A DNA stretch of 64,000 nucleotides, taken from positions 1,302,001 through 1,366,000 of the forward strand of contig AP026164.1 in the NCBI GenBank assembly GCA_030295235.1. The letters are read 5' to 3'. Below are positions 5,392 to 62,791 of this stretch, one piece after another. A program made the position numbers and the translations under genes. Each line of letters begins with the position of its first letter. The first letter of the stretch is position 1. The stretch is from Fistulifera solaris. Its lineage: Eukaryota > Bacillariophyta > Bacillariophyceae > Naviculales > Stauroneidaceae. The notes below the pieces were generated by a model. That model had not been told where the DNA came from. It did no database searches and was given only the letters and a program-made list of their open reading frames with translations.

Positions 5392-5462
5392 GGACGTTAA
5401 AATTCTGCCTCCCAGTACAAGATTCTACGTAGCGTCCACGACAAGGCAGAATTTTAACGCCG
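5392..5462 (-). mobile_element. 70-bp inverted-repeat element (MITE-like), copy 1
   Basis: The ends are inverted repeats, GACGTTAAAATTCTGCC on one side and GGCAGAATTTTAACGCC on the other. They enclose a non-palindromic core with CTACGTAG. The reverse complement matches copies at 23280-23347 and 61706-61775 almost base for base, core included. It is too short to encode anything. A MITE-like non-autonomous element is the simplest reading, but no target duplication was resolved. Confidence 0.7.
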
Positions 5463-5483
5463 TTTCTGTCTCGGCTATATCAT

Positions 5484-5510
5484 GATTCATGACTGAAATG
5501 CAGTCGCGGC
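5484..5510 (-). repeat. GACTGCATTTCAGTC repeat family, inverse copy
   Basis: The sequence ATTCATGACTGAAATGCAGT followed by CGCGG is the reverse complement of the family core. It starts 22 bp after the 70-bp inverted-repeat element and lies about 170 bp before the importin-alpha-like start codon. Confidence 0.7.
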
Positions 5511-5679
5511 ACATGCTGTGGAATTTGGTGGAACCGAGAACCCGATCCAAGCATTTTCGATGAAAATCATCGCCGCGTGCACTGTAAAAAACAAGCTGCC
5601 TTGTTGGATATTCACTTCCATGTGACCGAGTTTATAATTCAAAAAGTATTCATTTCCAAATCTTGCATGCGAAAAAATC

Positions 5680-7422
5680 ATGTCCGACCAAAGCCGCCGT
5701 CGCTTTCCCGTGGGAGATCCCCGTAAATCGGCGGAGCAATATCATCAAGATATGTTCCAACGAAGGCAAACACATACCGTGTCGCTTCGGAAGGAGCGTA
5801 AGGAAGAGAGACTGTGGCGTCGTCGACGACAACCCCCGCATTCGACCTCAGATAGAGTTGTCACAGTCGATGAGCTACTGCAACAGTACAATTTGTTCCT
5901 CGACAATCCTCACGAAATCGAAAAACTGAAAGAGTTACAAACGTCCATGGCCATCGATTCGGCATCGACCCACCAGTTTTTACAACAGTTGATTGATAAC
6001 CCTGATTTAGAAACACGGAACCGCTTATTGATTGCCAGTCTACGGAAGATATTAGAGGAAAATTCCGGAACGATGGATGACAAAGGCAAGGCTTCATTTA
6101 AGGTTCTGATGGAAGTGACGTTCTTTTCGTTGAATGTACCGAAACCGTCTGCCGACGATTATTATGGCATGCCAGCATTGCGCTGGTCCGATATTGTACA
6201 AGAGGATGAACTATTGATAAATTTACTGGTGGACTGGCTTCGGGTACCATCCGCCAATGAAGAAAGCGTAGGATACGTATGCATAATCGTGGGAAACTTG
6301 TTACACGATTCGGCTAGGTTAATTCCATTTCTTACATCGGCATGGGGTGCTATCGTCAAGCAACTGCCTTTTTCATCGTATCTTTGTGCCACTCTTATCC
6401 GAGAGGACTCTACTCACTTGGGTGCTTCATTTTTGTATGATTTGACTCCCGAGAAAATAGCAACCCTGCTACGAGAAAGTAGCACGGCGGAGGAAGCCTC
6501 GTTCATCCTAGAAGGATTGAGTCGCAGAGAAGAAGAGGCGGTTCAGATATTGTGTGGATCCTTGGAGTTGATGTACGCCATTGTCGCTGTTTTAGAAGAG
6601 AGCATGACTTCGTCAAATACTCAGGTCCTTGGGCCCCTGCTACGGGCAACACGCAACATTTTCAAACAAAGTCAGCACGCGAAGGGCTTATTGTTACATC
6701 CGTCGTTTCTACCGATCATCTCCAGCATTATGGAACAAGGAACTGAACTCGACTCTCTCGAAGTCGCTACCGCTCTCTTAACCTGGAACGGTACACTTGG
6801 TAACGATGAAATTGGCACTTTACTTGTACAGACACTGCTGCCGGTCCTTGTTCGGATTATAACATCGTCCAGCGCCTCATTTCCCTGGAAGCGAGATGCT
6901 GCGTGGGCGGTGTGCTGTTCTTTGCATCACGACTGGTCAATCGAACACCACGCTGTGTCACCGCAGGCGAAAGGCATCTCTGTCACGTGGTTGTCAAACC
7001 AATTGAGCGTCCCCCAATCCGATTTCGTTCGCTCTTTGACGGATCTCTTAACCAGTCCTGATATGGAAGCTGTTATTCCTGCATTGCAAATTCTTGACGT
7101 GTTGTTACGTACGATTCAAGCGACGCAACAAATCTTTGAAAGTGCCGGAGGAGTAGATCGGCTGGACATGATTTGTGAAAGGGGCGGTGAAGGAAGTCTC
7201 TCAGATTTTGCTTCGCTTTTAGCTGCGGATCTTCTGGACGATTTGTTTGAGGCAGATATCGAAGAAGATTCTATCATACTTCCATGCAGAGGAGAGAATG
7301 AGTTTGCTTTCGGTGTCATGGAACCTCAAAAGGCATTTGACTTCGGTGTGGGGAATCAACCAGGTCCCGGTCGCGGTCGCGGCCTCACAATCCCCGCATG
7401 GATGCAACAGTCGAAGAGATAG
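5680..7422 (+). CDS. Importin-alpha-like ARM-repeat protein
   Basis: The intact 580-residue frame opens with an importin-beta-binding-like basic region: MFQRRQTHTVSLRKERKEER then LWRRRR at about residues 25-55. This resembles the VxLRKxKKxExLxxRR pattern of importin-alpha IBB domains. The rest is a run of hydrophobic helix pairs consistent with divergent armadillo repeats. Importin-alpha adaptors carry NLS cargo into the nucleus with importin-beta. The usual ARM Trp/Asn ladder is not obvious, so cargo binding is uncertain. The C-terminus GRGRGLTIPAWMQQSKR is unusual for the family and nearly repeats the end of the neighbouring SPT6 gene. There are no introns and no frame breaks. An alternative is another ARM/HEAT protein that merely has an IBB-like N-terminus. 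Confidence 0.7.
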   Translation: MSDQSRRRFPVGDPRKSAEQYHQDMFQRRQTHTVSLRKERKEERLWRRRRQPPHSTSDRVVTVDELLQQYNLFLDNPHEIEKLKELQTSMAIDSASTHQFLQQLIDNPDLETRNRLLIASLRKILEENSGTMDDKGKASFKVLMEVTFFSLNVPKPSADDYYGMPALRWSDIVQEDELLINLLVDWLRVPSANEESVGYVCIIVGNLLHDSARLIPFLTSAWGAIVKQLPFSSYLCATLIREDSTHLGASFLYDLTPEKIATLLRESSTAEEASFILEGLSRREEEAVQILCGSLELMYAIVAVLEESMTSSNTQVLGPLLRATRNIFKQSQHAKGLLLHPSFLPIISSIMEQGTELDSLEVATALLTWNGTLGNDEIGTLLVQTLLPVLVRIITSSSASFPWKRDAAWAVCCSLHHDWSIEHHAVSPQAKGISVTWLSNQLSVPQSDFVRSLTDLLTSPDMEAVIPALQILDVLLRTIQATQQIFESAGGVDRLDMICERGGEGSLSDFASLLAADLLDDLFEADIEEDSIILPCRGENEFAFGVMEPQKAFDFGVGNQPGPGRGRGLTIPAWMQQSKR

Positions 7423-8170
7423 ATTCCAACGCTTTTAAACATATTAAATGTTGTAGGTATATTGGCAGGCTATAAAGCCCCCTTCGAGCGCCAATCCATT
7501 CAATGAAAACATAATTGTTAGCGAATAACGTGTTCCAATTCGTCGGTTTATAGCCCAAAGGCAACTCAACCCAAAGAACCGAATTGAGTCGGAAACTACG
7601 CTTCTACGCCACACGACGTAGGAAACAAATGTGAGAAATAACGCCCAGCACTTCGTGTCATTGGCTGTTGTAACGGATTCCATTGGATTTCACACCAAAG
7701 ACAGTGATAAAACTGTTGTTCCGGAAGAGACCAGTCTGACAACGTATTTTCCGTACGTAATCGACGCATTCATCGCAAACGATGCTAAAGATAACTGCAT
7801 TTTGCTTAAGGCATTTAGTTAGTTTGGACGCCTGTTTAGGATGGACACTTTTGATTCATGACTGAAATGCAGTCGTGGTTAAGTTGAGTCGTCAACACTT
7901 GAGGCCATAGTAACCATCCACATCATAAATGTCTGTACGGGACTCAAATCTTTGTACGACATCAACGGCTCAAATTTCGCAATGACAGCGAGGACGACGG
8001 ACACACCAACCCTGTGGTTGCTGCTGCGTTGCGCTGTTTTTGCTACGACGAACAGCAGAGACACAATGGATGATCGAGGTATGCGAAGCTGACTTCTTTT
8101 GTGCATAAATGTTATCGTTACATCAAGAGCCCTGTCAACCGTGTATCGTTTGCAATTTAATTGATGTAAA
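7423..8170. other. Intergenic region upstream of SPT6
   Basis: These 748 bp hold no supported gene; short frames here lack homology and codon structure. The region carries one inverse copy of the GACTGCATTTCAGTC repeat at about 7854-7904. It presumably contains the importin-alpha-like 3' UTR and the SPT6 promoter. Confidence 0.55.
7854..7904 (-). repeat. GACTGCATTTCAGTC repeat family, inverse copy
   Basis: The copy reads ATTCATGACTGAAATGCAGT then CGTGGTTAAG and GTCAACACTTGAGGCC. It keeps both the palindromic core and the CAAGTGTTGAC end of the family, in reverse orientation, about 270 bp upstream of the SPT6 start. Confidence 0.7.
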
Positions 8171-11100
8171 ATGAGTAGTCGCGATGATGATGACGGATTG
8201 CTCGATGAATCTGAATCATCGGATACCGGATTTGAGCCTCCGAAAAAACGCAAAAAAACCGATTCGAAAAAGTCTTTCATCGATGACGCAGCAGAAGAGA
8301 GCGGAGAAGATGGAGATGATAATGATGAAGACGAGGAAGATGACGATGATATCAATGATTACGTAAAAGACGGTTTTGTTGTGGACGAAGATGAAGAAGA
8401 AAACAAGAAAAAGGATGATTTAGAGGATTCCGATGACGAAGATGACGACGACGAGGATGATGACGATGAAAGCCCAAGGAAAACATCAGACAAAGAAGCA
8501 AGTAGAAAACGGTTGAAGAAACTCCGCAGGACGCGCGACACAGATTTACTCGATGAAGACGATCTTGCACTTATCCAGGAGGCTCAAGCCGGTGAAGATC
8601 GAGCCGACAAAGAGGCTGCTCAGCGGCAGCGGTGCTTGCACGATCCGAAGCCGAACTCCGTCGAGGATTGTTTGCCGACCAGGAAGACGAGGATGAGATG
8701 CCCCGACCTGCACGTCGACCAGAGCGAGTGGAAGAATACGACGAGTACGACGATGGGTTCATTGAAGATGACATTGGTGATCAAGGCGAAATCCGTGCTT
8801 CCGAACGAAGAGGGGGTATGTTTGATGATGAAGATGCGAGGGAAGTAAGCGAAGCTCAATTAAATGAAGCAAGCGAGATATTCGGTACCGATTACTTGGA
8901 GTTCATGGCAGCTGAACAACCAGATGATGACGAAGAGGAATTATTTGGCAAGTACCGTGAACGTGGAATCGACGCAGGGGATGAGTCTGAAGAAGAAGAG
9001 AGCGACGATGACGACCTTTTTGGAGACGACGACGATGATGATGCATTGGACGGAGAAACGGCCCAGCAGAAAGCCGAAGCTTTGAAGCTAAAACGCGAAA
9101 AGCGAGCACTGGCAAAAGCCGAGCGTCGTCGAGCTGCTTTGCAAAAGAAAGCGCAAAGACGTAAAGCCCAGCTTAGAAAAGCCTTTGAGCCTGTCCAGCT
9201 TGTTGAAAACTTTTGTACTGATCGAGATGACGACATTCGCCAAACAGATATCCCCGAACGCTTTTACGATTGGAAAACTCCTTTTGATGGTTCAAGGGAA
9301 GATGGCTTGACCGATTCGGAAAGAATTAAAGCGGAGTGGATAGCTGAACGTATTCCGAAAATCTGTGCAGAGATCGCCAATAGTACGAGTGAGGACGAGA
9401 AGATTCGCGTTTGGAAGGCTATCGCAAACGCTCTTCGCTTCATGCATCGTGACAAGCTTGAGCCTTCATTTTTAAAGCACTATCGCAGAGATTACATTCA
9501 ATCTGCCGCAGTTCGCGAAAGCCTATATGACATTATGGATGAAGACTCTGAGTGGCACAATATGCTCAATGCTAGAAAGAAGGTAGAAGACCTTTTGCAG
9601 AGATCAATGCAACAATAGAAGTCGAACATTCTCAGAACGTTGATGTAGAGCAAATTCAGAAACTTCAGGCTGATTTAAAGACGGCAGAAGAGCAGCTTAA
9701 CGATACTGCAAAACAAGAAACACAAGTAAAACATGAGCTTGAAGCTTTGGGAGCTGCCCATGACGACGACGATGATGATGAGCTTTTTGGGGACGACGAT
9801 GATGATGACGGAGAAGTGAGTTTGGCCTCTCGACGTTGTTTTGTTACCATCGCATTTCCATTAACCTAACCTAATCACTGTTTCGTTTCAGGAGAAGAAG
9901 AGAGAGCGAACAAGGCTTACTCAACATCTCGAAACAATCCAGTCACTTTTGGAAGCACGCGCAGAGAAAGTTGCGCAACTGCAGTCGCAGCTTCAAGTTG
10001 CAGAGGCAAAAATCAATCATTGAGCGACGGGGGATCCATCGCAAGAATAATGAGAAAAACGCACAAAAAAATCACTGTGGGATGTGCCTGACTATACTCA
10101 GTATCTACTAGGGCTTCAAGATACTCGCCACATAGTTGACATGAATGTTTACCTCACTCTAATAAAGGAAGGAAATGACGCCATCAGGAAGAAGGAGCTC
10201 CCAGCTCTTGTGTTGAAAGAAGGTATGGGCGAACGACGGAAACGCAGCCGTAGATTTGACCGGGATTTCTACAGGACTTGCGTATCAGAAGGTCTTCGAG
10301 CCGTTTGTTATCGTTTTCTCTTGTCGCCTTCGCGAGTTGGTATCAAATTGGAGGACTCGGTACAGTATGGAAAGTTTGACTTTTCAAAGCCTCTACCCGG
10401 TTCAGAAGAACAGAGTGTTGATCCTCTTCAATGGGTCGCGCCAACTATTCCAGACAAGAGTCCATCCGATTTTGCCAATGATTTAATAGGAAGTGGAGAG
10501 CTTGTTTTGCTTTCTTCGCCAGATCTTGCCGACATGTCAGAAAGTAACGATCCTTTACGTGGCTGCAGATACGTTGCCGCGACAGAACTGGCAGCCGAAC
10601 CTAGGGTTCGACGAACTCTTAGAGAAATTTATCGCAAACATGCCGTGCTGACCACTAGACCGACAAAGAAAGGGTTGGATGTGATTGATGCGTTTCATGA
10701 CTACTACGGCATCCACTTGATCTTTGCGAAACCCGTAAAGGACCATTTCCCTGTGGATGCAGAGGAATCACAACGGCGGAAGGACACGCTTGGTTCATCG
10801 GAACAGAAAGAATACGATAAGGAGATGACAGAGCGCCAGAGGCGAAGCTGCCTACAATACTTACACGTTCTTAAGGCTGAGCAAACCGGACTAGTCTCTC
10901 TTCATGTTCACCTACCGTTGAAAGAAAAACGAGACGACTGGTATAGTATCGATACCGATCAGCTGCTGAACACGAACCAGAACTTAAAGCCTTTGCTTGA
11001 TGAAGTTGAAAAAGTTTACCTTCCACTAGACGCAGACGAATTCAACGAGGAACGCCGAAAAGTGGTGCATATGGCATTGGTCAGCTTCCTTCTTCCTCAA

Positions 11101-14100
11101 TTCGAAGCGGAGCTGAAGCGGGAGCTACGAGATGCATCAGTCAAAATTGGGATTGAGGCCGCCGCAAATAATTTGCGAAAAATGGCGATGGATGGGCCGT
11201 ACCGACCTGCAGCAATCGTCCACACAGAAAATCGCTTTCTGCATCCAACGGGTGATTTGCCTTTCGTTGGTGTGTCATGTTCGTCAGATCCCAAGGAAGC
11301 TACGTACTTAGCTGCGGTAACTGACCGGGGGGAATCAAGTGATTACCTTGCAATTCCTAGTGGCGTAAAAGTTGACTCACCAAAAATACGCGAGAAGGTT
11401 GTTATGTTTTTGATTCAAACACGACCTGCAGCTGTTATGGTTGGTACCTCCGGCGGCTTTGAAAGCCGGTTGCTTCAGCGAAAAATGGTTGATTTGATAA
11501 ACGAAGCTGTTCAGCGGTGGAATAAGCGTGATATTCAGGGAGAAGACGAAGACGATGATGCTTTTCTTTCACGCCAAGAACAGTTTAGGCAGTTTCAAAC
11601 TAACATTCATGACGACGACGACCAAGATGAGTGGACATGCAACGTTGAGTTAATTGACGATTCAGTCTCGCAGTTGTTTGGACGAAGTGTGCGGTCGAAG
11701 AAAGAGTTTCCAGACCACTCGATGAACTTAAAGTGCGCCATCTCTATTGCTAGATATGCTAAAGATCCTCTTGCCGAACTTGCATATGCTTGGAGTGTGG
11801 CAAGTGACTCAGGTAACTTTGGTACAGAGATGCTTTACCTGAATATTCACCCTTCACAGCAGCTGCTTCCCCGGACAATCCTACTCCGTCATTACGAAAG
11901 GGCTCTTTGTGATATCGTCGCTGAGATCGGGGTGAACCTTAACAAATGTACGGCTTTGGATCATCTGAAAGGCTTGCTTACATTTGTTCCGGGTTTGGGT
12001 CCACGTAAAGCTGCTAACTTGAACCATATGCTTTCTCAAATGGGAGGCGCAATAGCTAAGAGACGGGACCTTCTAGAGAAGCGAGTCCTTGGGCCTGTAG
12101 TTTACAATAATGCAGTTGCATTTTTACGAATTGAAGATGCGGACCAGCTTGCGGACCATATACTTCACCCCCTCGATGGCACCCGGTTGCATCCAGACGT
12201 TTACATTCGTAACAACTGGGCATCGAAAATTGCTTTTGATGCTCTCGAACGAGAAGACCCGAAAACAAAGGAGTCAGCAGCTATCAAAGCCGTGAGAGAT
12301 GTCATGGATGATTCTCATTTGGAAGTCGACAGACTTTTTAAGGCCACCAAAGCGGAGTGGGAGCGACACTATGGTCCAACGTTCAACATTAAAGAGTGGG
12401 ACCCGAGAGTCAATGTTCCTCACGATCAGTGGCGTGACAAAGTGGAAGAATTGGATCTCGACACTTTTGCCAATATGATAGAGCAGAACGGCCATGGGCG
12501 CTGGCATACCCACCTTGAAATGATTAAATGGGAATTTCGCTTGCCAGCAGCCGACCCGCGGAAACCGCTTGAACCACTTTCTGGGGATAAAGTTTTTCAT
12601 TTGATTACAGGTGAAACCGATCAAAGTCTCCGACCCGGCAAGGAAATTACCGGAAAAGTCATCCGCAATGGTGATTTTGGTTCTCGTGTCAAGCTTGAAG
12701 GGGACATTCCTGCGTTTATCCCTCTCAGAAACTTATCTGATGAGCACGTCGAATCCGCTGATGACTTCGTCAGCGTCGGCCAAATTGTGACTGCGGTAGT
12801 GACAGAAGTAAAGAAAGATCACATGACAGTTGATATGAGTTTAAAATTGGAAGACTTTCGTAAGAAGCCTAGTTCCTGGGAACGTCCCACCTCTCTTTTT
12901 TCACTCGACGAATGCTTCGACGTTCAAGCGGCAAATAAAATTGAAGATGACAACGCAAAAAAGAGAGATGCTCATGTCGATGCTCTTCTTGTAAGTCTTG
13001 GAAGAACGGGAGACGACGTCGGTGGACTTCGCCAAGGAAAACGACGTGTTGTTCGACGGGCATGTACCCACCCTGCCTTCCGTAATGCTAAAAACAAAGA
13101 GGTAGAACGCGAGTTACTGGACGGGGGCTCTCAGATGGTTGGAGAGGCGCTCATTCGTCCCAGCAATAAATCAAGCGACTCGTTGGCTATCCATTGGGTT
13201 GTTAAAGAAGGCATGATCAAAGTGATTGAAGTTTTGGAAGAAAATAAGGAAACAGATGCTAGCATTGGAAATATTTTGAAGATAAAGGTATGCTTCGCCG
13301 TTTACACATTCTTGTCCTTGCTTCATTTCTGACCTTGGCATTATTTCAGGACGATGCGTTCGGCAGTATCGACGAACTTCTTGGACGTTTCATTGCCCCC
13401 ATGAACGACTACGTCGAGGAGCTCGTAAGTCATCGTAAATTTCTTGATCTTGCTGAAGAAGAAGTTGATGCTAAGCTCAAGGATGAAAAGAAGGCCAACC
13501 CGAAGTCCATTCCTTATGCACTCTGTTGGCTTGAAATGCACCCCGGCTATGCTTCTTTGCGTTTCGTTGCGTCTTCGACTCCGAGAAACCACACTATTGG
13601 AATCAGCCCAAAAGGATTCTCTTGGAATTCAATTACGTATGCCAATCTGGATGTTCTAATTGACAGTTTTAAGAAGAATCCTCGTGGTTCGGTCCCGAAA
13701 CCGAAGGAACTTCCATCTGTCCGTAAGCCTCCAGCACCCCCAGTACCCTCTCGACTACCGACGGAAAACAGATGGGGTGCAAAGCCACTTCCACCAGCCG
13801 CAACAGCTACTGGTTGGAATCAAGCGCAAGCGCCTCCGCCTTCTACTAAAGTTGGTTGGGGGCACCATCCGGAGGTCCTCCTGCTGCTGCGAAGGTTGGA
13901 TGGGGTGCGCCATCTCCTGCTCCTCCTGTTGCCGCAAAGGTTGGGTGGGGTGAACCGTCTTCAGCTCCTCCCCCGACATACGCGGCTCCTCCCGCCGTCG
14001 GTTGGGGCGCCCTATCCCGGCAAACGGGTACAGGTTGGCAACCTCAGAGAGCTCCTCCTCCTCCTAGACCTCAATCGCAGCATCAGCCCCCACCACCTGG

Positions 14101-14337
14101 ACCGTCAGCAATGCATCGCCCTCCCCACCGAACTTGCCTCCACCGCCAATGTACAACCAGGCTCCGCCGCCAAGGCCTCCCCCACCGAGACCCGTTCCAA
14201 ACTTGCCGCCTCCTGCAGCCCGACCACCACCTGATTACGGCTTTGGTGGCGACTTTCCACCCCCACAGGATTCCGGACAAGGTCGCGGTCGCGGACGAGG
14301 ACGTACTTTGCCTGCTTGGATGTCAAAAGGACAGTAA
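8171..14337 (+). CDS. SPT6: Transcription elongation factor SPT6
   Basis: SPT6 is the histone chaperone and elongation factor that travels with RNA polymerase II. Seen in order: a very acidic N-terminus (8171-9100), a conserved helical segment to 9610, and a coiled coil (9620-10020). Then come the Tex-like core with YqgF (about 11270-11480) and helix-hairpin-helix (VPGLGPRKAA, near 11985), an S1 domain (12640-12850) and tandem SH2 (from about 13040). The tail is Pro/Gly/Trp-rich and ends RGRGRGRTLPAWMSKGQ. Introns lie at 9816-9891 and 13288-13349. Frame breaks at homopolymers near 8631, 9608, 10010, 10067, 13860 and 14124 are each fixed by one base. The tail repeats VGWG with PAPP spacers, and it replaces the usual extreme C-terminus. 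The identity is secure. Confidence 0.93.
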
Positions 14338-14751
14338 GGTGTTAGGTCGTGCGTGCGCTTATCTAGCGCGATACTTAGGATGTAGGAAACGTCTAGCTAA
14401 ATAACAAAAGGTCTTTTGAACAGATTTTTGATCAGCAATGATCGATCAAGCGGGATCGATGATGAAGAAAGAGAGCTTGTGTCTTGTTTGTTCGTGTAAT
14501 TTACGGTAGGGAAAGTGTTGCAGTACCGTACAGATACGAACACATTCTTTGCCTAAGAAAGACACAGGAAAAGTTTCCGTTCAAAAATCACCATTGCCCC
14601 TTGATAAATAAATTGCCGACAGAATGACGACGAGACGAGAAGCGACAAGGTGAAAAACGATGAACGCATATTATTTATTCAATTTTATTGAATCTCCTGT
14701 TTGAATCACAAGTCATGCCTCACTTGCTCTCGCGAATGAGTCCTCCCGCGA
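14338..14751. other. Intergenic region after SPT6
   Basis: These 414 bp hold no supported gene. The region is AT-rich toward 14670-14700 (ttatttattcaattttattg), which would suit the SPT6 3' end or the promoter of the next gene. Nothing else stands out. Confidence 0.45.
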
Positions 14752-18060: not shown

Positions 18061-18229
18061 ATCCGACTTGATCTTCGAAGTCGTAGGACGCACCAACGAC
18101 AACAACAACAAAAACGACAACAACGACACCGACAAGAGTAATGAGTGAAGAGGCTCCAGCATTAGGTCGTACACTTAGATTTTAGGATAAATTTAGTAGG
18201 TTTTAATTATTAATATTTCATGTTATCAT

Positions 18230-23161: not shown

Positions 23162-23279
23162 GGTTATCGAGTGACGTAAAATATGCCCTCTTTTGTTACT
23201 TGCTACGAGTTCTTCAGGTAAAATAATGGCCTGGATAGATTTCGGACAGAGTTCGAGGGAATTTCTTTCTTTCTGGAAA

Positions 23280-23347
23280 CGCGTTAAAATTCTGCCTCGT
23301 CGTTGATGCTACGTAGAATGTTGTACGAGAGGCAGAATTTTAACGTC
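23280..23347 (+). mobile_element. 70-bp inverted-repeat element (MITE-like), copy 2
   Basis: The ends CGCGTTAAAATTCTGCCTCG and GAGGCAGAATTTTAACGTCC are inverted repeats. The core GATGCTACGTAGAATGTTGT matches copy 3 (61706-61775) and the reverse of copy 1 at all but a few positions. Confidence 0.7.
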
Positions 23348-23362
23348 CTTTCCTACCTTGGA

Positions 23363-23421
23363 CCAGTACTGTATGTACCTGGTACGGTACAAGGTACCGG
23401 ACCAGTACCGGTACCGTACCC
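23363..23421. repeat. GTACC/GGTACC palindromic array
   Basis: Consecutive overlapping words such as CTGGTACGGTACAAGGTACC and ACCAGTACCGGTACCGTACC make up this stretch. Similar arrays occur at 16091, 30436, 32283, 57712, 57848 and 57898. Confidence 0.75.
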
Positions 23422-23502
23422 GTTCGAGTAGGTCCGGGACTGCAAATGAAATCAGTCATGTCAAGACAACCCTTTACGCCACAGTAATGATAACATGATT
23501 CT

Positions 23503-26814: not shown

Positions 26815-27450
26815 TCAGCCTGCCCTTATGACGTGGAGGGCGTTGGCAACGGATGTAGATGGTTCGGCTTGCATACGTGCAATTGCTCCGTCCCATTCGA
26901 TGCTTTGTCTTGAGTACGAGATGTTGATTTGATTTTGCTCTAGGAAGTCGCTTCCCAGGAGAAGTCCAAAGCGCGGTTTGTCGCTCGGATCTATGTAGAA
27001 TGTCCATTGCACTGACCGCGTTGTTGAAAGTTCCGGTAGTATTATCTCAACGGCTGCTACGTATTTGACGCGGAAGTCGCCGCCTTTCGTCTCAAAGGGG
27101 CTTTCGCGGCATTTGCGCCAATACTGTTTGGGTATCAGCTCGTGGTGGATGAACGATGCGGTAGATCCTGTATCAAGTAGTGCGGTGGACGTTGTCGCTT
27201 CCATGTAACTGTCTATGGGCAATATATCGCATAGTAATGCTGCCTTGCGTCGCCGTCGGTCTACCCTCTTTGGCCTCTTGGGGTCCATAGGTTGGCAGTG
27301 ACGGGTTTTGTCATCCTTTTGGTATATTGTGTGACACATAGAATAGGGAGAAACAGAATAACTAGAATTAGAATCGCTACTGGGCGATCGTCTCACGTCT
27401 TCCCTTGGCTCTGTGGCGCGGGGGTCGGTAGGATGAGGCAGTGCTGGCAT
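26815..27450 (-). CDS. Retrotransposon aspartic protease region
   Basis: The open frame contains TSTALLDTGSTASFIHHEL, a retropepsin-type catalytic DTGS motif (near 27175). It also has a hydrophobic flap region and GLLLGSDFLEQNQINISY, the usual second conserved block near the protease end. It lies between the gag zinc knuckle and RT, as expected. Confidence 0.82.
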   Translation of the reverse strand: MPALPHPTDPRATEPREDVRRSPSSDSNSSYSVSPYSMCHTIYQKDDKTRHCQPMDPKRPKRVDRRRRKAALLCDILPIDSYMEATTSTALLDTGSTASFIHHELIPKQYWRKCRESPFETKGGDFRVKYVAAVEIILPELSTTRSVQWTFYIDPSDKPRFGLLLGSDFLEQNQINISYSRQSIEWDGAIARMQAEPSTSVANALHVIRAG

Positions 27451-27563
27451 CCGATGAGGATGCTTCTTTTATATGGTTGCTGTAGCGCGGACGTTTGCTG
27501 TCTCGGTCGCTAGCTCTGTTTCGGTTTCTAAAATCATCGCGAGGGCGTTTGTCCTGCCTGTCG

Positions 27564-44930: not shown

Positions 44931-44960
44931 ATCAGCTAGTGAAAAGAAGCTTTTGAAAAA

Positions 44961-51380: not shown

Positions 51381-51511
51381 ATTTTACCAGTATCAGGCGT
51401 AGTATTCTAATGAATGAGAATCGGTAGCGAGCTATGATAAGTTTGTTGTAAAGAGTAAATTATCTGTTGAACCGGACCAAGACTCGTGCGAATTGCAACT
51501 CTTCCACAGCG

Positions 51512-52612: not shown

Positions 52613-52916
52613 TTCCTTTATGATTGTAATGCAATGTGTAACTTTTAAGAGAAGGAATGAAACTTGCATAAGTTGTGATACTTGTACTTGTACAAGTGAT
52701 TTTTGCGCTGCTTTTCGTCAATACAATTACGGGAATGAAATCGAGTTGAGTCACAAGAAGACAACTCTAAATAATAATGAGTTGGAATTGGTGTACATTC
52801 CCTGTCACAGCGTCAAAGATAAGACCGGTCGGCGTCGCGAGACCGACGCACCGAAACTCGAAACAAAACATCTCTCCATAATATCCATCCATCGCATCCA
52901 TTCGTCGTCACATAAA
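52613..52916. other. Divergent promoter region
   Basis: This 304-bp spacer separates two divergent genes. No other feature is seen; a TTGTACTTGTACAAGTG palindrome occurs near 52682. Confidence 0.45.
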
Positions 52917-55145
52917 ATGGCGCAAAACACGATGGAAAGCGATTCAGAACAAGAACGACGAAATAGAACGCAACTTTCCGCTCACCTTTTATCCAGTTTA
53001 CTGACGAATCACACTTTTGATGAGATTCCGCTTGTAGCATTTCAAAGCGAGGTGTGTAAGACTCTTTCTCAGATTGTCGTCGCGTGCACGACCACTCCCT
53101 CCCTAAATGGAGTGCAGAGCATTTCTTTTGCTCGTTTAGACGAATGTTTACAGCGAGTGGATTGGAAAACGATAATCGAACAGAGAGATGCCCGACTGAG
53201 ACCGCACAAACAATCCACCATGAACTTAACAACGCCGTGCGATGTTCTTTTATCGTCTTTGAAAGACACCACCGTTTGGCCTCCAGCGTGTAATGGATGT
53301 CTCGTCAAGGTCCTGTTGAATCATTTACTTTTCATCGATCCGGAAACTCTATAATTAAGCGCTCCACGCGTTGTGGTAGACTCGATTGGTCGCCATCTCA
53401 TTCAAATTTACTCGACTTTGTGATCGAAATGATGCAGGTGCAACCGTCTCTTGATGCGAATCAAGTTACCTCGTGGATTCGCTCCAACTTGAACGAATCC
53501 AACAAGACCGACACCGAAACTATTAACGTCGCAATCTCCATCGTCAAAGAACTTATTCGTAGTTTCCCATTCAAGGCCATCGTGTTCCTTCCCCTTTTCC
53601 TGGATATGTTATGTGTCACAGAAGCACTTCTGAACAAGCTTCGATCGGCTTTGCCGCGTGTATCAAATAGTGAAATAGGGAAACCGCAAGTCAAGCGATC
53701 GAGATTGGTACATGGAACCAATGTGGCTGTGTTGCACGGTGAAAGTTCCGATTGCGAGGAAGACGCTTATCACAATCGATTGTTTGTGCAGCACTCCAAC
53801 GCACATAAGAATTCCCAATCCTTAGGGGCTGATCGCAAAAGATATTGCAGGCAAATACGCAATCGTCAACACGAACGGTAACTTATGAACAGATTGCATT
53901 TTTGTCTGCCTTGAGAACAAAGTGCCTGAAAGCCTTCTTGGCGTCTTCCAATGATTGTGCATCTACATCGGGTGTCGGAGCTGTAAATCAGTCACTCTTT
54001 CGTATCATTTTTAATTTGTTGGAGAGTCAACCGGGTTCCGAAACAATTTTGGTGCGGTTTGCTGCTTTACTTTTGATCAACGCCAATCCACCGTTGGCTT
54101 ATCAAAAACTGCTGGATATGCTATGGTCACGTGTCGACGAAGCCAATGACCCTTGCGCGTGTTTGAGCTTTTACGTCGAGTTGCTCATTGAATCTTCCAT
54201 CTTCGACGATAGGACTGCACTAACCACCGCAATACAGCCACTGTTGGATCTTGTAAAGAGGAGGATCCTAAATCGAGAAGACCAAGCTTTATGGCCGAAT
54301 GCGCAGGTCGCTCTTCACTGCCTTGCATGCCTTCTCACCTATCGAGGTACCATGCTAATGCAATTACCCGAGTTTCTGTTTTTGCTTGCTCAACTCTCGA
54401 ATGAATATCCATCACCCAAACAATGGCTTTTGGTAAACACAGTTTCTGCTCCGGAAGAGCTGAAGCTGTTGACGTCCCTACGCGAGTCTGGAGTATTTGG
54501 AATTGAAAATGAACTAGAGGAAGACGGAATTCTTAAGGATTGCAGTGGGTCTTGGTTTTATGATCCTCATCGAAGTTCGACAATCCGTACTTGTAGTCTT
54601 TTCACCGGTTTAGCATCTTCTGGTCTTTCGTCGCCATGGAGTCCCACAAACTCGGATCCAAAGCTAAGTTGTGGTTCACAAGTGGATCAGCCACTACATC
54701 CTGACACGAAAGGAGGAATAGCGCTGCATGACTTAGGAGATGATGTACTGCGTGAAGTATTCTCTTTCTTGGTTTCAAACGGATTGTTTTCAATAGGCAA
54801 GTCTGCAAACGATGGAAGTGCATCGGGGACGACGAGTTTAATACGTGGAAGCCATTGTACGTTGGACGATTCGGTGTGGACTTAGAAGATCCTTTATTAT
54901 CAAGTGCGGCTTGCACATTGTCATGGAAGCAACTTTTCATGGAGCGATGGATGGCAGAAAAAGAAATAAGATACAAGCGAGATAAGAACGGCTGGAGATG
55001 GCGACTCTGCACACGGATTGGTTGCCTGACAGTGCATTCTTCACCATCGCGACTTTTGAAACATCAGTCCACTCATAAAATCACTTCGAAAGAGCGAAAG
55101 AGGGCAAGACGCCTTGACGCGACACCTACGAAGTCGGTTGCTTAA
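52917..55145 (+). CDS. Helical-repeat protein with C-terminal F-box-like motif
   Basis: The start at ATG 52917 (MAQNTMESDSEQERR) reads on in pieces: to about 53354, from about 53360 to 53830, 53830-54880, and 54880-55145. The frame changes three times, and it is unclear how many are real. Most of the ~730 residues are amphipathic helices (SETILVRFAALLLINANPP, VALHCLACLLTYRGT). Near 54725, ALHDLGDDVLREVFSFL is F-box-like. A C-terminal Trp-rich motif (WRWRLCTRIGCLTV) and a basic tail follow. An F-box would suggest an SCF ubiquitin-ligase adaptor, with the helical region binding substrate. That is inferred, and I do not recognise the family. Confidence 0.5.
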
Positions 55146-55323
55146 GTTGGAGAAGTTGACGTGAAAGTTGTGCAGTGCAAGCTCTCCCAATCGTCTTCCA
55201 ACGCATTAGTGGGCGGTTTGTTGTCAGCTACGTTGCGCCAGCGTCTCTCACACCAAAACACGATTGTTCTCAAGACTTTCACATACAAACCCACTCTCTC
55301 ATTAAATATATACTTAAAATAAA

Positions 55324-57337
55324 TTAGAAGTTTGCAATTGCTGCGAGCAAATCCTTTGATTCCCGGAGATAATCGACAGGCCACATTCCCACTACACTTG
55401 TCTTCACTCTGTTTTCTTCGTTTACCAATTCATTCTTGACGCGGCAGCGAAACACCCAGTCTGAGAAAAGAGCAGGTGCATACAAACTGTCGTAGGCATT
55501 CTGATCGAACGAGCCTTCCGGATGGGAATGAAGGAACGCTTCGTCGGCAGTGACACCCAGCAAGGTTTCCGCCTGCTCGTTGAAAAACGATACCCAAGTA
55601 GAAGAGGTGCTATCTTCGACAACTCCAGAAAAAATCCAACGTCTCACGCAGTTACCGTACGTGTTGTGGCATTTGTCACATTGCCACTGTCCATCGGTCG
55701 TCGGAGTCACCTTGAATCGGTTCTTGCGGCTCTCCCGCGTTCGCACACGCGGGATACCAAGCACCGCCTTCGCGGTCTTTCTTAAAGAAAGTAATGGTGC
55801 CCTTGAAAGCAATATAGTCACCCTTATCAACGTTGATATGTCCTAGATTTTCTTCACGGATAGCCTCAATGTTCTTGCGCTCGACCAGGGAAGCGACTTG
55901 TCCTCCACCCCCGGAGCGTGCCGACAAAGACCGAGTCGCTGCCCCAGTAGAACCAACAGTCTGCCACCATCGCACGAGCTGCTGCGCTTCAGGGATCTGA
56001 GGGTTGATATCGGTGCTAGCACCGGCGGAGAGGGAGCGTCCTCCATACTCTGAAAGGCGCGCACGGCGGAAAGCAACCACGGGATGGTTCGCAAAGTCAC
56101 GGGGAGCTGTTTCGGCCTTTTCTCGCCAAACGGTGAGAGTAATCTCCGTACCAGAATCATCCACAAGAATCAAATCGCATTTTCCCATTTCTTGACCAGT
56201 TTTTTTCGAAACAATGTGGCTGACATCGCCCACCGATTTGACAATCGCGAGCACATCGACGGATTTATTCGGTTCAACATGTTCCAGATCCCCAATCTTC
56301 ACGAAATCGTAGTGCGCCGCTGCAATGGCGCCATCGTCATCGTCCAAGTGGATTTCGGTGTTTTGATCGAAAGTGATCTCGAAGGACGATTTGCAAGTGT
56401 TGTATTGCATGTTGGCTACCTTGAGGCGACCGCCTGAGATGCGGTAGACTTTACCGGGTATCAGCATGTTGTAAAACTTGTCAACTCCTTCTTTGAAGAA
56501 AGTGCCGCGAATATCTACTCCAGAGTTGTCGAGCAACTCGATAGAGAAGAGGATCCCTCGCCCTTGGCGTTGGACCAAGTTCGGACATCCGATTTCGTAG
56601 TGAGACGGGCCTTGATCGTCCAACGACTGTTGTAGATGTTAAGACCGGCAATGGGAGTGATCGTCGTTCCATCGACGTTCATCGATCGCTCGATGGGCGG
56701 CTGGTATCTCTGACTCGTCGAAGATCCGTAGGGATTGTCTCCGCGTGGCGATGTGGCAGCTCCGTACGGATTTCCTCGATTTGGTGATCCGATCGCTGGC
56801 TTGTTCTCTCGTTTCACATAGTTGTTGGCCATGGGAGCGCTGTTGGTGCTATTGTATAGGGGCTGAGCCAGTGGCTGGGCGTGCATAGGCTGAGCGCTCG
56901 GAAGCTGACCTGACTTCAATGACGGCTCAATATCGATTGGGGCACCGATGCGCTGACCGGGATTATCTAGTACGCGAAGATTCAGAAGAATGATAACCAA
57001 ACGACCAGAGACCTCATTCTTGAGGCATTCTTGCAGCTGAACGATAGAATTGTCTCTAAGCTCTCCGGCATGGACCATGCTAGTCAATTGCTTAGAAAGC
57101 ATTCCTTGCACGAAATGTATACCATCGGAAAGAACAGCCTGCAAAGAAAGGATGAGAGGGCTAATTCGAAGGAAAGGTTCTTTTGTAGAAAAGAGTCTGT
57201 TGATGACTTACGCGATAACGATCGTTACTATTTCCAACTTGTTTGAGGCTGACAACCTGAACGATAGGCGAAAAACTACTATCAACTCCCGCTACTTGCA
57301 CGAGCTTGCTAATGGCATTGCTGGTAATCATCTCCAT
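55324..57337 (-). CDS. RPA1: Replication protein A 70-kDa subunit (RPA1)
   Basis: RPA is the single-strand DNA-binding heterotrimer of replication and repair. Exon 1 (57212-57337) encodes MEMITSNAISKLVQVAG; a 73-nt intron (57139-57211) precedes AVLSDGIHFVQGML. The N-terminal OB fold is followed by a Gly/Pro/Asn linker, then OB fold A (IYNSRWTIKARLTTKSDVRT with WSNAKGEG). OB fold B follows (VDVLAIVKSVGDVSHIVSKK, VDDSGTEITLTVW) and OB fold C with a zinc finger (WYPAC...CDKCHNTYGNC) and RWIFSGVVEDST. One G is missing near 56556 and the frame shifts again in the finger near 55745, where the second Cys position is unclear. The polypeptide is otherwise complete and ends LLAAIANF. Confidence 0.92.
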
Positions 57338-58091
57338 TTTCTAAAGAGAAAGAAGCAAGGGTGAGTCAAATCCTGTCGTGCGGAGGAGTGCTCGTTGTCA
57401 AATGATCATTGCCCGCGATATACGCAATTACCGATCGCTTCGTCGCAAGTCGTTCTGTTCTTCCCCCACATGTTCACTCACCTCAGTGTTATTCAAATCA
57501 CTTTTATTATGGAAGAAACAAAAGCTTTCGTTATTGTATGAGTTGATAACAACACAACGCAATCGAATGATTGCAAAATGAATGCAGATGATCTGCAGCC
57601 AAAAGTTCGAACGGAAACTGAACAGGCGCGAGACAGTTCTCATTACACTATAGTCTATCCCGGAGGGAAGTTTTGACAAAGCGCGCGCACTGCACCTATA
57701 CTACAAAGTAGGTACCGGTACCGGTACCGGTACCGGTACCGGTACTCTTGTATGCTCCGCCCAGCCGCCCAGCGGTAGCGGTGCCGGCGTGTTTTTCAAA
57801 GGGTGGAAAATGGGCGCGCAGCACCACTGTACAAAGTAAAAGCTACTGGTACCGGTACCGTACCGGCACAAGTACTCTAGAGTAGCAATTAGGAAAGGGT
57901 ACGGTACCGTACCTGGTAACGGTACCGTACCGGCACGATATGTCGTGGTCGATGGAGTTTGGAGCGAAGCGCATAACGAGATTTCCTGTTCTGTGTTCAC
58001 TTTTCAAGCTTGAAAAACACCCATTGACTTGCTGGTAAGAGGAGTGAATGGCAATGATCTTAGATAAGATACTGTATACAACAAGAAGAGA
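57338..58091. other. Intergenic region rich in GGTACC arrays
   Basis: These 754 bp lie between divergent genes. Three GGTACC-type arrays lie at 57711-57746, 57847-57868 and 57897-57935. No gene is seen. Confidence 0.55.
57711..57935. repeat. Cluster of GGTACC/ACCGGT palindromic arrays
   Basis: The first array is six head-to-tail ACCGGT-type units (TAGGTACCGGTACCGGTACC and on). The second and third are interrupted (TGGTACCGGTACCGTACC; GTACGGTACCGTACCTGGTA). This is the densest cluster in the window. Confidence 0.78.
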
Positions 58092-59963
58092 ATGTCGAGC
58101 AATTTCTGCTTGAAGAGAGGCGCTCCATCCAGCTCAACGAAGAAAGTTATCATCGATTCTTCTACGTCTGAAGATGAGAGTTTGATTTCGAGGTCGAGCA
58201 GCATCCCACGATCGCGGATACGGAAGTCTCCCAATGATTCTACGGCTTTACGAGCAGCTCGTACGCAACCTTCTTGTATCGCAACGAAAACAACAACTAA
58301 GGAAGTTTACGCGATCGACTCGCAGTCAAGTAGCGATGACGACGATGATGATTCATTGTTGAAACCAATGATTGCGACAAAGCGAAGAAGAATTACTGAC
58401 AGTCCCAATTTGCTGTCACAGAAAACTAGAAACCCACCGCTAAAGAATTCTTGTGCAGATGACTCCTCTGCTGATACGGAGGAACTTCGGTTGATTTTAC
58501 TGAAACCGACACCGAAAGCCGTCGGCCCACAATTCACACCAAAATCTACCGAATCTACGTCGCATGGGGAAGTGCTGCGAAACTCATACCGTTCAACCAA
58601 CAATCAAGCGAACGATGATTCTTCGGAGGACACAGTGGAACTAACGAAACTTTTACTGGGAAAACAATCAAATCGAGAGGAGCATTGTGATTGCCGATTG
58701 CCCACCGAAATCAACACGGCTCCACCTAGTGTAGATCATCAAGAAAGCGATAGTGATAAGTTCGAGTTACCCGATCCGGAGGAGTCTTCTGATTCTTCCG
58801 TGGCATCCACGGATACGCAAAATAGTGACCGTTGGGAAGATCGAAAGTTACCGGCTAGAGAGCATCCCCTACAGCCACGTAAACAACTGGTTCCGCGCAA
58901 CCCGTATGTTGGTGTTTTATCAAGAGGTACATTCATTGCTCCGACACAGCAACGAATTACTCCTATAAACCAGACTAAGACCTATGCGACTGGCTGCCAA
59001 AATGATTTCAGTGGAGTTGGCAATGAAATAGTAACTGACCTCCTTTTAAAGGAACCACCCTTAACTCAAACTCGACCACGTCCTCCAGATCCTTCTCAAC
59101 TTCGGTTATGTGATCTTCGTGAAGCTGCTCTTTTCGAATGCTCGGTTGTTGATTATGATTTGTTAGGGAATCTGAGTCCTTCACCGGACAGGACAAGGAA
59201 TTCGTCGAAGTGTGCACTTGAGAGCTCGCATCGACAATTCAATACTGAGCAAGTGGATGACCAATTGGAGAGAGCGGCTCTCTTCGGTGATTCACCATGT
59301 GTCAGACAGTCGGAAAATTCACAATCGCAAACGCAGGTGCGAATGGGACTTCACTCTCCAAGATCTACCCCGTTTTCCCAAGCACCACCAGCCCGACAGA
59401 CTGAACCGCTCAGAGACGATTATATTCAAGACTTTAGTGACGACGAAACCGCGGTGCAACGCATCGGAAGACTCGCCAGTCAGGCTTTGCGACAGAAGCG
59501 ACAAAGCCTGCTACAAACAGCTCAATCGCAGCCGTATCAAAACGAAGTAGGGCAAGTGAATCGCCATGGTCCTCCTCGCCGCTTTCGCGATGTATCGATT
59601 TGCGATACTACAATGTCTCGATCTGTAGTGCTACGGCAATCTGACAGAGATCCCTCCGGCCTGGCGCCACGAAACGAGTTGACTGGCGGATCGGGTACTG
59701 GTGTAACAAGCTTCGTTTCTGCACCTAGGAATAGAGGCAAAGGTTCGGAAACTAACAAGAAGCGATCGGGTGGTTGGAAAGGACGAAACAGATGGGGTAA
59801 AGCTAAGGGGAAGAACAAAAAAGGCACTCGAGGCCGAGGGAAAGCAAGTAGTGGAGAAGGCAATGGCTTTTTGAACAGACGGCCACCCAGCGCGGGAGGA
59901 GGATTCAGTCGGGGAGATGATGCTAACTTGGGACACGTTGGTGGTGCTGAATTTTCATTTTGA
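58092..59963 (+). CDS. Low-complexity Ser/Asp-rich and RGG-like protein, unknown
   Basis: An intact 623-residue frame with an ATG at 58092. The N-terminal third has repeated acidic-serine blocks, each followed by a short hydrophobic run: DDSSADTEELRLILLKP and DDSSEDTVELTKLLLGK. Similar text recurs (DSSTSEDESLI, DSQSSSDDDDDDSLLKP). The pattern of acidic-Ser next to LILL resembles SUMO-interaction motifs or casein kinase 2 sites. The middle is disordered and Gln/Arg-rich. The C-terminus is basic and Gly/Arg/Lys-rich (KAKGKNKKGTRGRGKASSG), and the last residues are GGAEFSF. No fold or family is recognised. It is probably nuclear and disordered; single exon. Confidence 0.6.
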   Translation: MSSNFCLKRGAPSSSTKKVIIDSSTSEDESLISRSSSIPRSRIRKSPNDSTALRAARTQPSCIATKTTTKEVYAIDSQSSSDDDDDDSLLKPMIATKRRRITDSPNLLSQKTRNPPLKNSCADDSSADTEELRLILLKPTPKAVGPQFTPKSTESTSHGEVLRNSYRSTNNQANDDSSEDTVELTKLLLGKQSNREEHCDCRLPTEINTAPPSVDHQESDSDKFELPDPEESSDSSVASTDTQNSDRWEDRKLPAREHPLQPRKQLVPRNPYVGVLSRGTFIAPTQQRITPINQTKTYATGCQNDFSGVGNEIVTDLLLKEPPLTQTRPRPPDPSQLRLCDLREAALFECSVVDYDLLGNLSPSPDRTRNSSKCALESSHRQFNTEQVDDQLERAALFGDSPCVRQSENSQSQTQVRMGLHSPRSTPFSQAPPARQTEPLRDDYIQDFSDDETAVQRIGRLASQALRQKRQSLLQTAQSQPYQNEVGQVNRHGPPRRFRDVSICDTTMSRSVVLRQSDRDPSGLAPRNELTGGSGTGVTSFVSAPRNRGKGSETNKKRSGGWKGRNRWGKAKGKNKKGTRGRGKASSGEGNGFLNRRPPSAGGGFSRGDDANLGHVGGAEFSF

Positions 59964-60143
59964 GAGTACGGTGTATCGATCACATGAATTATAAAAGTGA
60001 ATTTAAATAGCATAAGCGTTTCTTTACGACTTTAAGCTAAATGGTCAGTTCCCAAAAATATCCAGCACTTGGAATAGCTTCTGGTTTCGTAGTTGCAAAG
60101 ATTTATAGCGGCAGAATCAACATGGTCGCCTGGCAAGAAGAAC

Positions 60144-60998
60144 TTAGAAGTGCATAGGTACTGTGGACTGTGACTGCTGCCAAAACATTTCAGCTATGGT
60201 ATTCGGATGTACCTGATGATTGTATTGTGCGGCTGGGGGATCTATCTGCAAAGATATTGGTGCGCCAAGAGTTTGTTGAAGTCGTTTGCTTGGTTGCCCG
60301 TTGTAGGTCGATTGACGAATCCATACTTGTGAAACAAATTTCGTGTCAATGGCAGGCAACGCTGCATGCAAAGCCATCTTATCCAGCATACCGTCAACAG
60401 TAGCAGGAAAGAATACCAGCGCCATGCCTCGTCGCGGCTGAATATCTAGATTAAGAGCCGGAAAACGTGTCGCGCCACCTCGCATAACATCGTTCAAATA
60501 AATCAACACTGTGACTGTCCGCTGTCCTCCGTTCGCCGCGAAACGACGACCATCTTCCGTGCTCAAATCAAAAGCTATGATCGATAGCATGGATGTGAGT
60601 ATCAAAAAATCACTGTAAAAGGAAGAAATTGACAGTAGGAAAAGAACAAACGTACCATCAAAATGCTGAAGATACTTTTCTTGATAGAAGTAACGTCCAA
60701 CTTGCGGAAGCTCACAGTGTTCTGGGGGTTTGCCCGTCAACAAGGTCACTTTGCGCATCAAATCACCAAGATCTTCTCTGGCCAAGTAGCAAGTCGAGCT
60801 GGTGCGACTCGGTGATATCTCCCCCGCCCCTTTTCCTACAACTGGTGCTGGTCCGAGTCCGTCCACCGCTGCATGGATGAGGAAATCGCATTCATACGGC
60901 GTGAGAAAATTTTCGACGGCAAAAATTGGAGGTGAATTGTTTAGAACACGCAGGCCTGGGTAGCTCGGATTAACGCCGTTGTAAATTGGAGGCGTCAT
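60144..60998 (-). CDS. Prolyl 4-hydroxylase-like 2-oxoglutarate/Fe(II) dioxygenase
   Basis: The preferred start is the ATG at 60998; the frame continues up to 61079 without an ATG. A 2OG-Fe(II) fold is visible. The HxD iron ligand is HFD at the exon junction (YLQHFD|AFDLST), the distal His is in DKMALHAALP, and the 2-oxoglutarate Lys is in DTKFVSQVWIR. QRTVTVLIYLNDVMRGGATRF is the family's core strand. The intron 60575-60655 is 81 nt, in frame and free of stops, so an unspliced product is possible. Such enzymes hydroxylate proline in secretory proteins. Here the N-terminal signal is not visible, so an upstream exon or frameshift is likely. Confidence 0.8.
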   Translation of the reverse strand: MTPPIYNGVNPSYPGLRVLNNSPPIFAVENFLTPYECDFLIHAAVDGLGPAPVVGKGAGEISPSRTSSTCYLAREDLGDLMRKVTLLTGKPPEHCELPQVGRYFYQEKYLQHFDGTFVLFLLSISSFYSDFLILTSMLSIIAFDLSTEDGRRFAANGGQRTVTVLIYLNDVMRGGATRFPALNLDIQPRRGMALVFFPATVDGMLDKMALHAALPAIDTKFVSQVWIRQSTYNGQPSKRLQQTLGAPISLQIDPPAAQYNHQVHPNTIAEMFWQQSQSTVPMHF

Positions 60999-62791
60999 TG
61001 ATGAATCTTGGAGCGAGAAAGTAGTTATGGTTGGTACAAGAGAATCTGTTTGCGGTATCTCCTCTAACAAAAGAGCTCGTCAAGGAGGTGCGCGTTTTCG
61101 GGTTGAGCGATCGCAAGCGACTAAAGCTGTAGTCAACAAAGAAATAAACTACGGAGTATGCCACAAGTTCCCTCGAAATAACGCTTATGATTTCTTGCTG
61201 CTTGAATGGGTATAAAAATGGAGCATAAACAAAGATGTGATCGGGGGTATAAATAGTTCGTCGTGTCGAAGCACTTCGGAAATTGACGGTGAACTTTGCT
61301 TGAACTCTAAAACGGCTGTGACGTCTGTGAGGGCGCAATGGCGCTGGCAATTTCTACGGTGGATACGGGAATGAAACACGAATGAATCATCTAATCTGCG
61401 CGAATGAAGATCATTCTCACAAAGATCAGGTCCGCCTCTTGTGATTGCTTGATGACGAAATCTACGATTCATTTTGTTTATAATGAAATAAAATGAGAAG
61501 AATGACGAAAGAGTTCGAGTGCGGACGAGTCAAAGAGGAAAGGCTGCATTTTTATTAGCAATCAGCATGCAGCATGAATGCATGCCGCAAAAAACTACTC
61601 CGTATATACAAGTACCGTACTTATATAGTACTTGTATTTGCAGGTTGCATGCCGCATTGGCATCGTCGTTCGAATGGACAAGGGACGAGGACCGTACCAT
61701 GGAAAGGCGTTAAAATTCTGCATCGTCGTAGACGCTACGTAGAATCTTGTACTGGGGAGCAGAATTTTAACGTCCTTCCCGGGTACCAACAACCAACAAC
61801 CGCACACCGCACAGAAAAAGGGAGACACGGGAACGCACCTCTGCTTGGTACATTTCTCTACGGGGGCCTACGCGAAAGTACACAATTTCCCGCACCGTCC
61901 CGTGGCCCGTGCTAAAAGATTAAGCCATGGCATAATTGTTCGTGCCATAAAACTTAGAGAAAGGGTCATAGTCATTTATAATCAAAACGCCCAATAAGTC
62001 AAAAAGACTACACTAATTTCCGGAAAGTGTTGCGTTCAGTGTGACTGAAGTTAAAGTTAATGTTTTAATTTATTACTCATTACTCATTACTCATTACGAT
62101 TAAGAATTTCCGATTAGAAACTAGAAAAGTATCCCGTACCAGGTATTGGCAAAGCTAGGTAGTAGCAACTGGCAACTGGAAATCGACAATTGGCAATCGA
62201 CAATCAATAGTTGGCAATTGGCCATTCGAAATTCGAAAAAATGAAGTCATTTGTCATTTGGGGTTACTGAGTTCGGTCCTACAGAGATGTACCAAGTAAT
62301 ATTATCTACGGATGCTGGAACCTGGAACAGGTTACAGTTGGTAAGCTGAAAACGTGAAACATAGAACAAGTCATAAGATGGGGTTATAACTTGGAACTAA
62401 TTACTTCGCATCTCCGCATCCCGCATCCGGTCATGAGGGCAATTACAAATTACTAACAACTAAGAAATAATGAAAGGACTATCAAGATGAACGAATATCA
62501 TCAAGCATCCCATTCAAGCATCAAGCATCGACCAGCAACCAGCAACCAGTCACATTCACGTGAGATGTGACAGGTCACGGGTCACGTAGATTAGCTATCA
62601 GTACCACTGAGAAACCAATAAATAATGTAAGGTTTTACCGGCATAAATAAGATAAAGAAGCCCTAAAATTCCACGCCCTGCTTGACGTGCAGAGTGCAGA
62701 GATCCTTTTAGCCTTCAAAATAACCTCCCAGCTCCCATTTGCCATTTATAAAGACTCTGCGTTTTGAGAAGTGAAACATCCTAACAGCACG
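60999..62791. other. Intergenic region with simple-sequence duplications
   Basis: This 1.79-kb region between divergent genes holds the third ~70-bp inverted-repeat element (61706-61775) and a 26-bp inverted stretch near 61608 (acaagtaccgtacttatatagtacttgt). It also has ATTACTC repeated about three times at 62078-62098. A run of near-duplicate words follows (GGCAACTGG, CAATTGGCAATCG, AGTTGGCAATTGG, CATCAAGCAT), 62160-62560. No gene is supported. Confidence 0.5.
61706..61775 (+). mobile_element. 70-bp inverted-repeat element (MITE-like), copy 3
   Basis: The ends GGCGTTAAAATTCTGCATCG and AGCAGAATTTTAACGTCC flank the core GACGCTACGTAGAATCTTGT. It agrees with copy 2 and with the reverse complement of copy 1 apart from a few bases, so all three share the core, not only the ends. 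Confidence 0.7.

Follow-up and report, generated by a model that had tools for sequence, protein, structure and literature searches.

What are the three nearly identical short segments with inverted ends that lie in intergenic DNA of this part of the Fistulifera solaris genome? The whole stretch analysed here, 64,000 nucleotides long, is referred to as the window. A preliminary description of the window left three readings open, a MITE, a binding site and a structured RNA. The number of dispersed copies, their target duplications, their nesting and tandem arrangement and the existence of subgenome-specific versions now favour the MITE, and neither the binding site nor the structured RNA is favoured. 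The copies are present where that description placed them, with the arms and the core GCTACGTAGAAT as it gave them, and their exact-arm cores occupy positions 5396-5458 (reverse orientation), 23283-23344 and 61709-61771. The boundaries it gave were too narrow, as alignment of flanked copies extends the unit 4-5 bases further on each side. With full ends, the window copies are 77-79 bp long:

5388..5466, minus strand: MITE copy 1, A-type, 63-nt core subfamily; inverted ends at 5388-5411 and 5443-5466
23276..23352, plus strand: MITE copy 2, A-type, 62-nt core subfamily; left end one base short (GAAACGC)
61702..61779, plus strand: MITE copy 3, A-type, 63-nt core subfamily; left end one base short (GAAAGGC)

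The preliminary description proposed a genome-wide search. In the 51.7 Mb (61 contigs) of the F. solaris genome we found 243 copies with both 13-base arms exact, compared to 0 in a mirrored control. Chance is excluded because of this difference. The core, whose conservation the preliminary description had held against chance palindromes, is not special: within subfamilies it diverges from consensus by 3.2-4.8% per site, which is the level expected of a young repeat family. Copies diverge from their subfamily consensus by 2.8-5.1%. A single exact arm occurs 655 times genome-wide (control, 1). Extrapolation from the 655 exact arms and 243 exact pairs, assuming that the arms mutate independently, gives ~440 copies and a probability of 0.74 that a 13-base arm is intact, equivalent to about 2.3% change per site.

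The full unit of ~79 bp consists of GRAACGRC-GTTAAAATTCTGCCTC, a 31-bp core that is non-palindromic as a whole, and GAGGCAGAATTTTAAC-GTCCTTYC. The inverted ends (GRAACGRCGTTAAAATTCTGCCTC) are 24 bp long and imperfect, with 3 mismatches at most. Core length between and including the inner arms is 63 nt in 34 of 49 examined copies, 62 nt in 14 and 65 nt in one. The unit has no coding capacity and is too short for a transposase gene. In these copies, which were selected by a match to the inner part, the outermost 8 bases vary by 7-13%, versus 0.2-1.3% in the inner arm. Greater variation at the outermost bases is unusual for transposon ends.

Target duplications, for which the preliminary description had suggested a test, were sought in 49 distinct flanked copies (36 on A contigs and 13 on B contigs, as defined below), chosen by similarity and including the window copies. 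Left-flank positions 1-40 were compared pairwise with right-flank positions 1-40. In 32 of 49 copies, versus 12.1 expected, the same base occupies the tenth position to the left and the tenth to the right of the core (z 6.6; the next best position pair has z 4.1). This base tends to have a C before it and a G after it, giving CNG. Where CNG occurs on both sides, 18 of 20 triplets are identical, a result reached in none of 20,000 shuffles, and a 3-bp CNG duplication is thus found. Counting against a MITE, an identical flanking triplet is kept in only 19 of the 49 copies (7 CTG, 6 CAG, 3 CCG, 2 CGG and 1 TGG), 13 of these 19 having the form CWG. The target is a loose palindrome, TAC-CNG-GTA, in which each letter save the variable N is the commonest at its position; the flanking TAC and GTA letters occur in 17 to 25 of 49 copies each, and the T at the outermost left leads by a small margin.

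Perfect duplications are found in none of the three window copies. Copy 1 has CAG on both sides in element orientation only after a one-base shift of the outer end made by eye, and was left out of the duplication match count. Copy 2 has an imperfect duplication, CTG (23273-23275) versus CTA (23353-23355), and no duplication remains at copy 3, where the flanking triplets are ATG and CGG. Over ~100 bp on each side of copies of the family, GTAC is enriched, at 26 falling to 7 per kb versus 3.1 beyond 500 bp. Micro-tracts rich in GTAC/GGTACC occur around copies, for example at window positions 23360-23430, with GTAC at 14-26 per kb within 60 bp.

Some copies have inserted next to or into others. 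One locus is a CGG-unit-CGG-unit-CGG tandem with a period of 82 bp (79 + 3), and close pairs also occur at two further loci, with copies 82 and 93 bp apart. At C31:501180-501370 one unit is nested within another, which is direct evidence of insertion. Counted by eye, the outer core there has 147 bases rather than 63, and the 84 added bases correspond to a 79-bp unit plus a 5-bp near-duplicate (TACAG/TACTG). The nested copy departs in this from the 3-bp rule; an ambiguity between 3- and 5-bp duplications is described for the NuwaII group in a section of a transposon survey (PMC4482050).

We classify the family as a MITE because 3-bp CNG duplications accompany insertions of a dispersed family; its short non-coding unit, inverted ends and high dispersed copy number are those of a MITE. 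With high confidence we regard each copy as a 79-bp non-autonomous MITE. In the mechanism we propose, a DDE transposase made by another element would have attached to the inverted ends, excised the unit and inserted it where CNG had been cut with a 3-bp stagger. This transposase probably belonged to the PHIS (PIF/Harbinger) superfamily and made CWG duplications like those of its NuwaI group. The family would have multiplied separately in each parental diatom once the two had parted, and would have shown little or no activity since their fusion produced the allodiploid F. solaris.

A transposase of PIF/Harbinger type, NuwaI-like, is suggested by comparison with known groups. Sections of the same survey describe NuwaI, a group within PHIS (PIF/Harbinger-ISL2EU-Spy), as having CWG duplications and ends of 12-61 bp that usually start with GGG, with a mean element of ~4.5 kb and occurrence in that survey only in animals; the PIF/Harbinger duplication is given as TWA (PMC4482050). 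In loose resemblance to NuwaI, the F. solaris MITE has 3-bp duplications of CNG form, with CTG or CAG in 13 of the 19 identical triplets, and its ends start with G and, at 24 bp, fall inside the 12-61 bp range that these sections report (PMC4482050). It differs in having CCG/CGG duplications as well (5 of 19) and one TGG, and in ends that start GGA or GAA directly after CNG rather than GGG.

PIF/Harbinger-type elements have transposases of the DDE_Tnp_4 family (PF13359). This profile gives 25 matches in the genome, 24 of them over the cut-off, at 23 places (two pairs overlap); it was also matched in one of 14 control genomes. An autonomous partner with the same ends, which the preliminary description had advised looking for, was not found at the 10 of 23 DDE_Tnp_4 places examined or by three pattern searches. 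At those 10 places, read in stretches of 3.2-4.5 kb that may be shorter than the element, no MITE ends were seen, so that no transposase or Myb/SANT gene is associated with these ends. The three pattern searches, which looked for the ends apart from the MITE interior, gave no evident larger element, as judged from the matched letters. Searches with unpaired arms returned 54 and 17 matches that, by their letters, look like MITE variants or chance, C31:501324 alone having been read in context. The outer-end search was weak, with 85 matches (48 + 37) versus 99 in the control (59 + 40). Of three of its candidates that were read, L069 is a MITE with a small insert, L067 shows no second end in the stretch read, and L068 (C7:575982) is a candidate with a good end. 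One of the 10 DDE_Tnp_4 places, at C31:272900-276500, is a PIF/Harbinger-like element of ~2.6 kb with 29-bp inverted ends of its own (GGCCCGTTCCTAACCAAAATATCGTACCC), TCA next to either end and a 429-aa open frame that matches DDE_Tnp_4.

A variant of the MITE reading is that the transposase comes from outside PHIS, for example from another 3-bp-duplicating superfamily, and we give this a little less than an even chance. It is in keeping with the lack of a PHIS element bearing these ends in the places and pattern searches just described, and with ends that begin GGA/GAA instead of NuwaI's usual GGG. The presence of DDE_Tnp_4 transposases in this genome argues against it, as do the CWG duplications, which the survey sections report as a mark of NuwaI within PHIS (PMC4482050).

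Whichever transposase moved it, the MITE occurs in two sequence versions. The A and B consensus sequences differ at five core and three outer positions, and the 16 + 16 inner arm bases are identical. Copies with the exact B pattern number 54, on 19 contigs, and copies with the exact A pattern number 55, on 19 other contigs:

B contigs: C1, 3, 5, 7, 9, 11, 13, 15, 17, 19, 21, 23, 25, 27, 34, 36, 38, 42, 45
A contigs: C2, 4, 6, 8, 10, 14, 16, 18, 20, 22, 26, 29, 31, 33, 35, 37, 39, 43, 44

These contig classes are defined by the elements themselves, and no contig mixes the two exact patterns, while 20,000 label shuffles gave a mean of 21 mixed contigs and never fewer than 11. Each of the independently established homoeologous pairs C1/C2, C3/C4, C5/C6, C7/C8 and C38/C39 consists of one A and one B contig. 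A 20-base apt guide-RNA target has exactly two occurrences, one on C39 with GGG after it and one on C38 with TGG, and a 2026 study gives the same target with GGG/TGG for the two F. solaris apt homoeologs (PMC13276009). Among the matches listed for contigs C1-C8, 2 of 46 one-mismatch rows appear to break this split: C1:1016172, on a B contig, is A-like, and C6:1353376, on an A contig, is B-like. Ancestral variation, exchange or rare jumps between the subgenomes might account for them.

Earlier work on F. solaris assigned subgenomes only tentatively, by GC content and codon usage, and referred to transposon relics as the other known method, one that requires a better assembly; it also describes chromosome pair 10 as switched (PMC5935921). 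Here, A and B loci (29 versus 12) are not distinguished by the GC3 of their longest ORFs (p 0.91); of nine homoeologous pieces in the window, seven have the higher value in B. Subgenome-specific transposon relics were used to phase the allotetraploid genome of Xenopus laevis (cited in PMC5935921). The two cases are alike in that element sequences are restricted to one parental chromosome set, and differ in that F. solaris, a diatom, has one family with two diagnostic sequence versions.

The homoeologs C3 and C4 are 82-92% identical in aligned blocks, and fourfold-site divergence between the subgenomes is 0.20 (2,102 sites in nine open frames, C3/C4). The 2.8-5.1% divergence among MITE copies is lower. 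Intergenic DNA around the three window copies does not align between C3 and C4. Outside the window and its homoeolog we fetched 41 loci (29 A, 12 B) and tested 15 sites (11 A, 4 B) on C1, C2, C4, C6 and C8, where partner-contig copies are best listed. A 150-base coding piece could be placed on the partner contig in all 15 cases, and, among the matches listed, no copy occurs within 3 kb of the homoeologous place in any of them; the nearest is 3.8 kb from the expected place (C2:808081). The copy lists include every exact arm on C1-C3 and every left half with up to one mismatch on C1-C7, so that a decayed partner could escape. Because the intergenic DNA of the two subgenomes does not align at the three sites tried, a base-by-base alignment to an empty homoeologous site was not obtained. 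Searches for empty sites with joined flanks of the fetched loci gave spanning matches for only seven queries, all of them from closely paired copies, and none of these counts as an empty site.

For one window copy in three, that at 61709, the corresponding intergenic region of the homoeolog contains a B-type copy (C3:1436795). A single ancestral insertion was considered and rejected, as the flanks do not align, and the pairing may be a coincidence, given roughly one copy per 117 kb. Most simply, the family probably amplified separately in each parent after the split and had stopped by the time of the merger, with probably little or no jumping across subgenomes afterwards. Exact copies on the wrong side number 0 of 109, which limits those that crossed to at most about 3% (95% bound).

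The family lies mostly in intergenic DNA. Placement was assessed for 45 copies (one per fetched locus, the three window copies and one in the window's homoeolog), with genes approximated by crude ORFs of at least 120 aa and a background of 144 kb from one homoeologous region, so that the numbers are rough. Copy midpoints fall inside such ORFs in 7 of 45 cases, versus 71.6% of random positions. The 32 copies with ORFs on both sides comprise 14 between divergent frames, 18 between frames of the same direction and none between convergent frames, against background values of 35%, 45% and 19%. With ORF cut-offs of 150 and 200 aa, convergent cases are 1 of 27 and 0 of 17. The family is depleted from open frames and convergent gene ends.

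This placement could also be expected of a dispersed regulatory or replication element, a protein-binding palindrome selected upstream of genes and homogenised within subgenomes. Intergenic enrichment and the 0 of 32 between convergent frames suit such an element, as do the well-conserved inner arms and CTACGTAG core and the partner of one of three window copies in the homoeologous intergenic region. We consider it very improbable. Copies are missing from the homoeologous place at 15 of 15 further sites (among the matches listed), although the flanking coding piece is present on the partner in all 15, and a fixed functional site is rejected on these grounds; CNG duplications and nested and tandem insertions record insertion events. 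A structured RNA family, such as a small-RNA hairpin precursor spread as a retroposed or duplicated gene, is the least credible reading and is rejected: the window copies do fold strongly, both as RNA on either strand (z -4.6 to -7.8 versus dinucleotide shuffles) and as DNA hairpins (z -4.5 to -8.5), but any long inverted repeat folds, the window has no Rfam match at gathering thresholds, the copies carry transposon-type duplications, and of 69 changed paired end positions 64 are changed on one side only, 2 are paired on both sides and 3 are changed on both and unpaired.

The MITE is ordinary in kind, a very small and apparently undescribed family; among the papers listed from the open PMC literature on MITEs and transposons of Fistulifera and diatoms, no title or abstract opening gives an account of it. 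Viral contigs contain no relatives of it, and prokaryote contigs have 2 exact 21-base matches, about chance level in 257 billion bases. It resembles the Tourist-like MITEs, such as mPing of rice (PIF/Harbinger), in being short and non-coding, with inverted ends and many copies near genes, and differs from mPing in duplicating CNG rather than TWA and in having no known partner element. Tourist-like MITEs are several hundred bp long, versus 79 bp here, and mPing prefers the 5' regions of genes.

The main interest of the family is that, in an allodiploid alga, it keeps a clean record of the genomes of both parents. Its versions mark 38 of 61 contigs and suggest a subgenome grouping and possible exchange points. 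That hybridisation awakens transposons is a common idea, and the data suggest that few or no copies of this family crossed subgenomes after the merger. A more ambitious reading, which we hold only tentatively and think somewhat doubtful, is that a CWG-duplicating NuwaI-like group, previously found only in animals, amplified in parallel in both parents and stopped at or before the merger. If so, the copies would be a ready barcode of parental origin, and hybridisation would not have triggered transposition of the family. Should the transposase assignment hold, CNG-duplicating miniature elements would be extended to diatoms.

Other repeats were observed near copies of the family. Two loci, on C8 (L027, 1244-1500) and C5 (L049, 1713-1980), have in common a tandem-repeat-like stretch, ATTTTCTGG..CGTGAAAA (unit determined by eye), adjoining MITE copies. 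Site homology was considered for their flanks and rejected, as the similarity looks like a shared tandem repeat. Adjoining copy 1, intergenic window positions 4578-5319 contain other repeats, with relatives at C4:1465514 (97%) and on C10, C6 and C7 (80-89%). The intergenic region homoeologous to that of copy 1, on C3, includes a tandem array of ~230-bp units that are 97-98% alike (L037, ~5533-6341). At window positions 26815-27468, on the minus strand, an open frame encodes a retroviral-type aspartyl protease domain (PF00077). It lies within a stretch at 23.1-30.6 kb whose counterpart in the homoeolog is only about 0.5 kb long, and this stretch is possibly a retrotransposon insertion in one subgenome.
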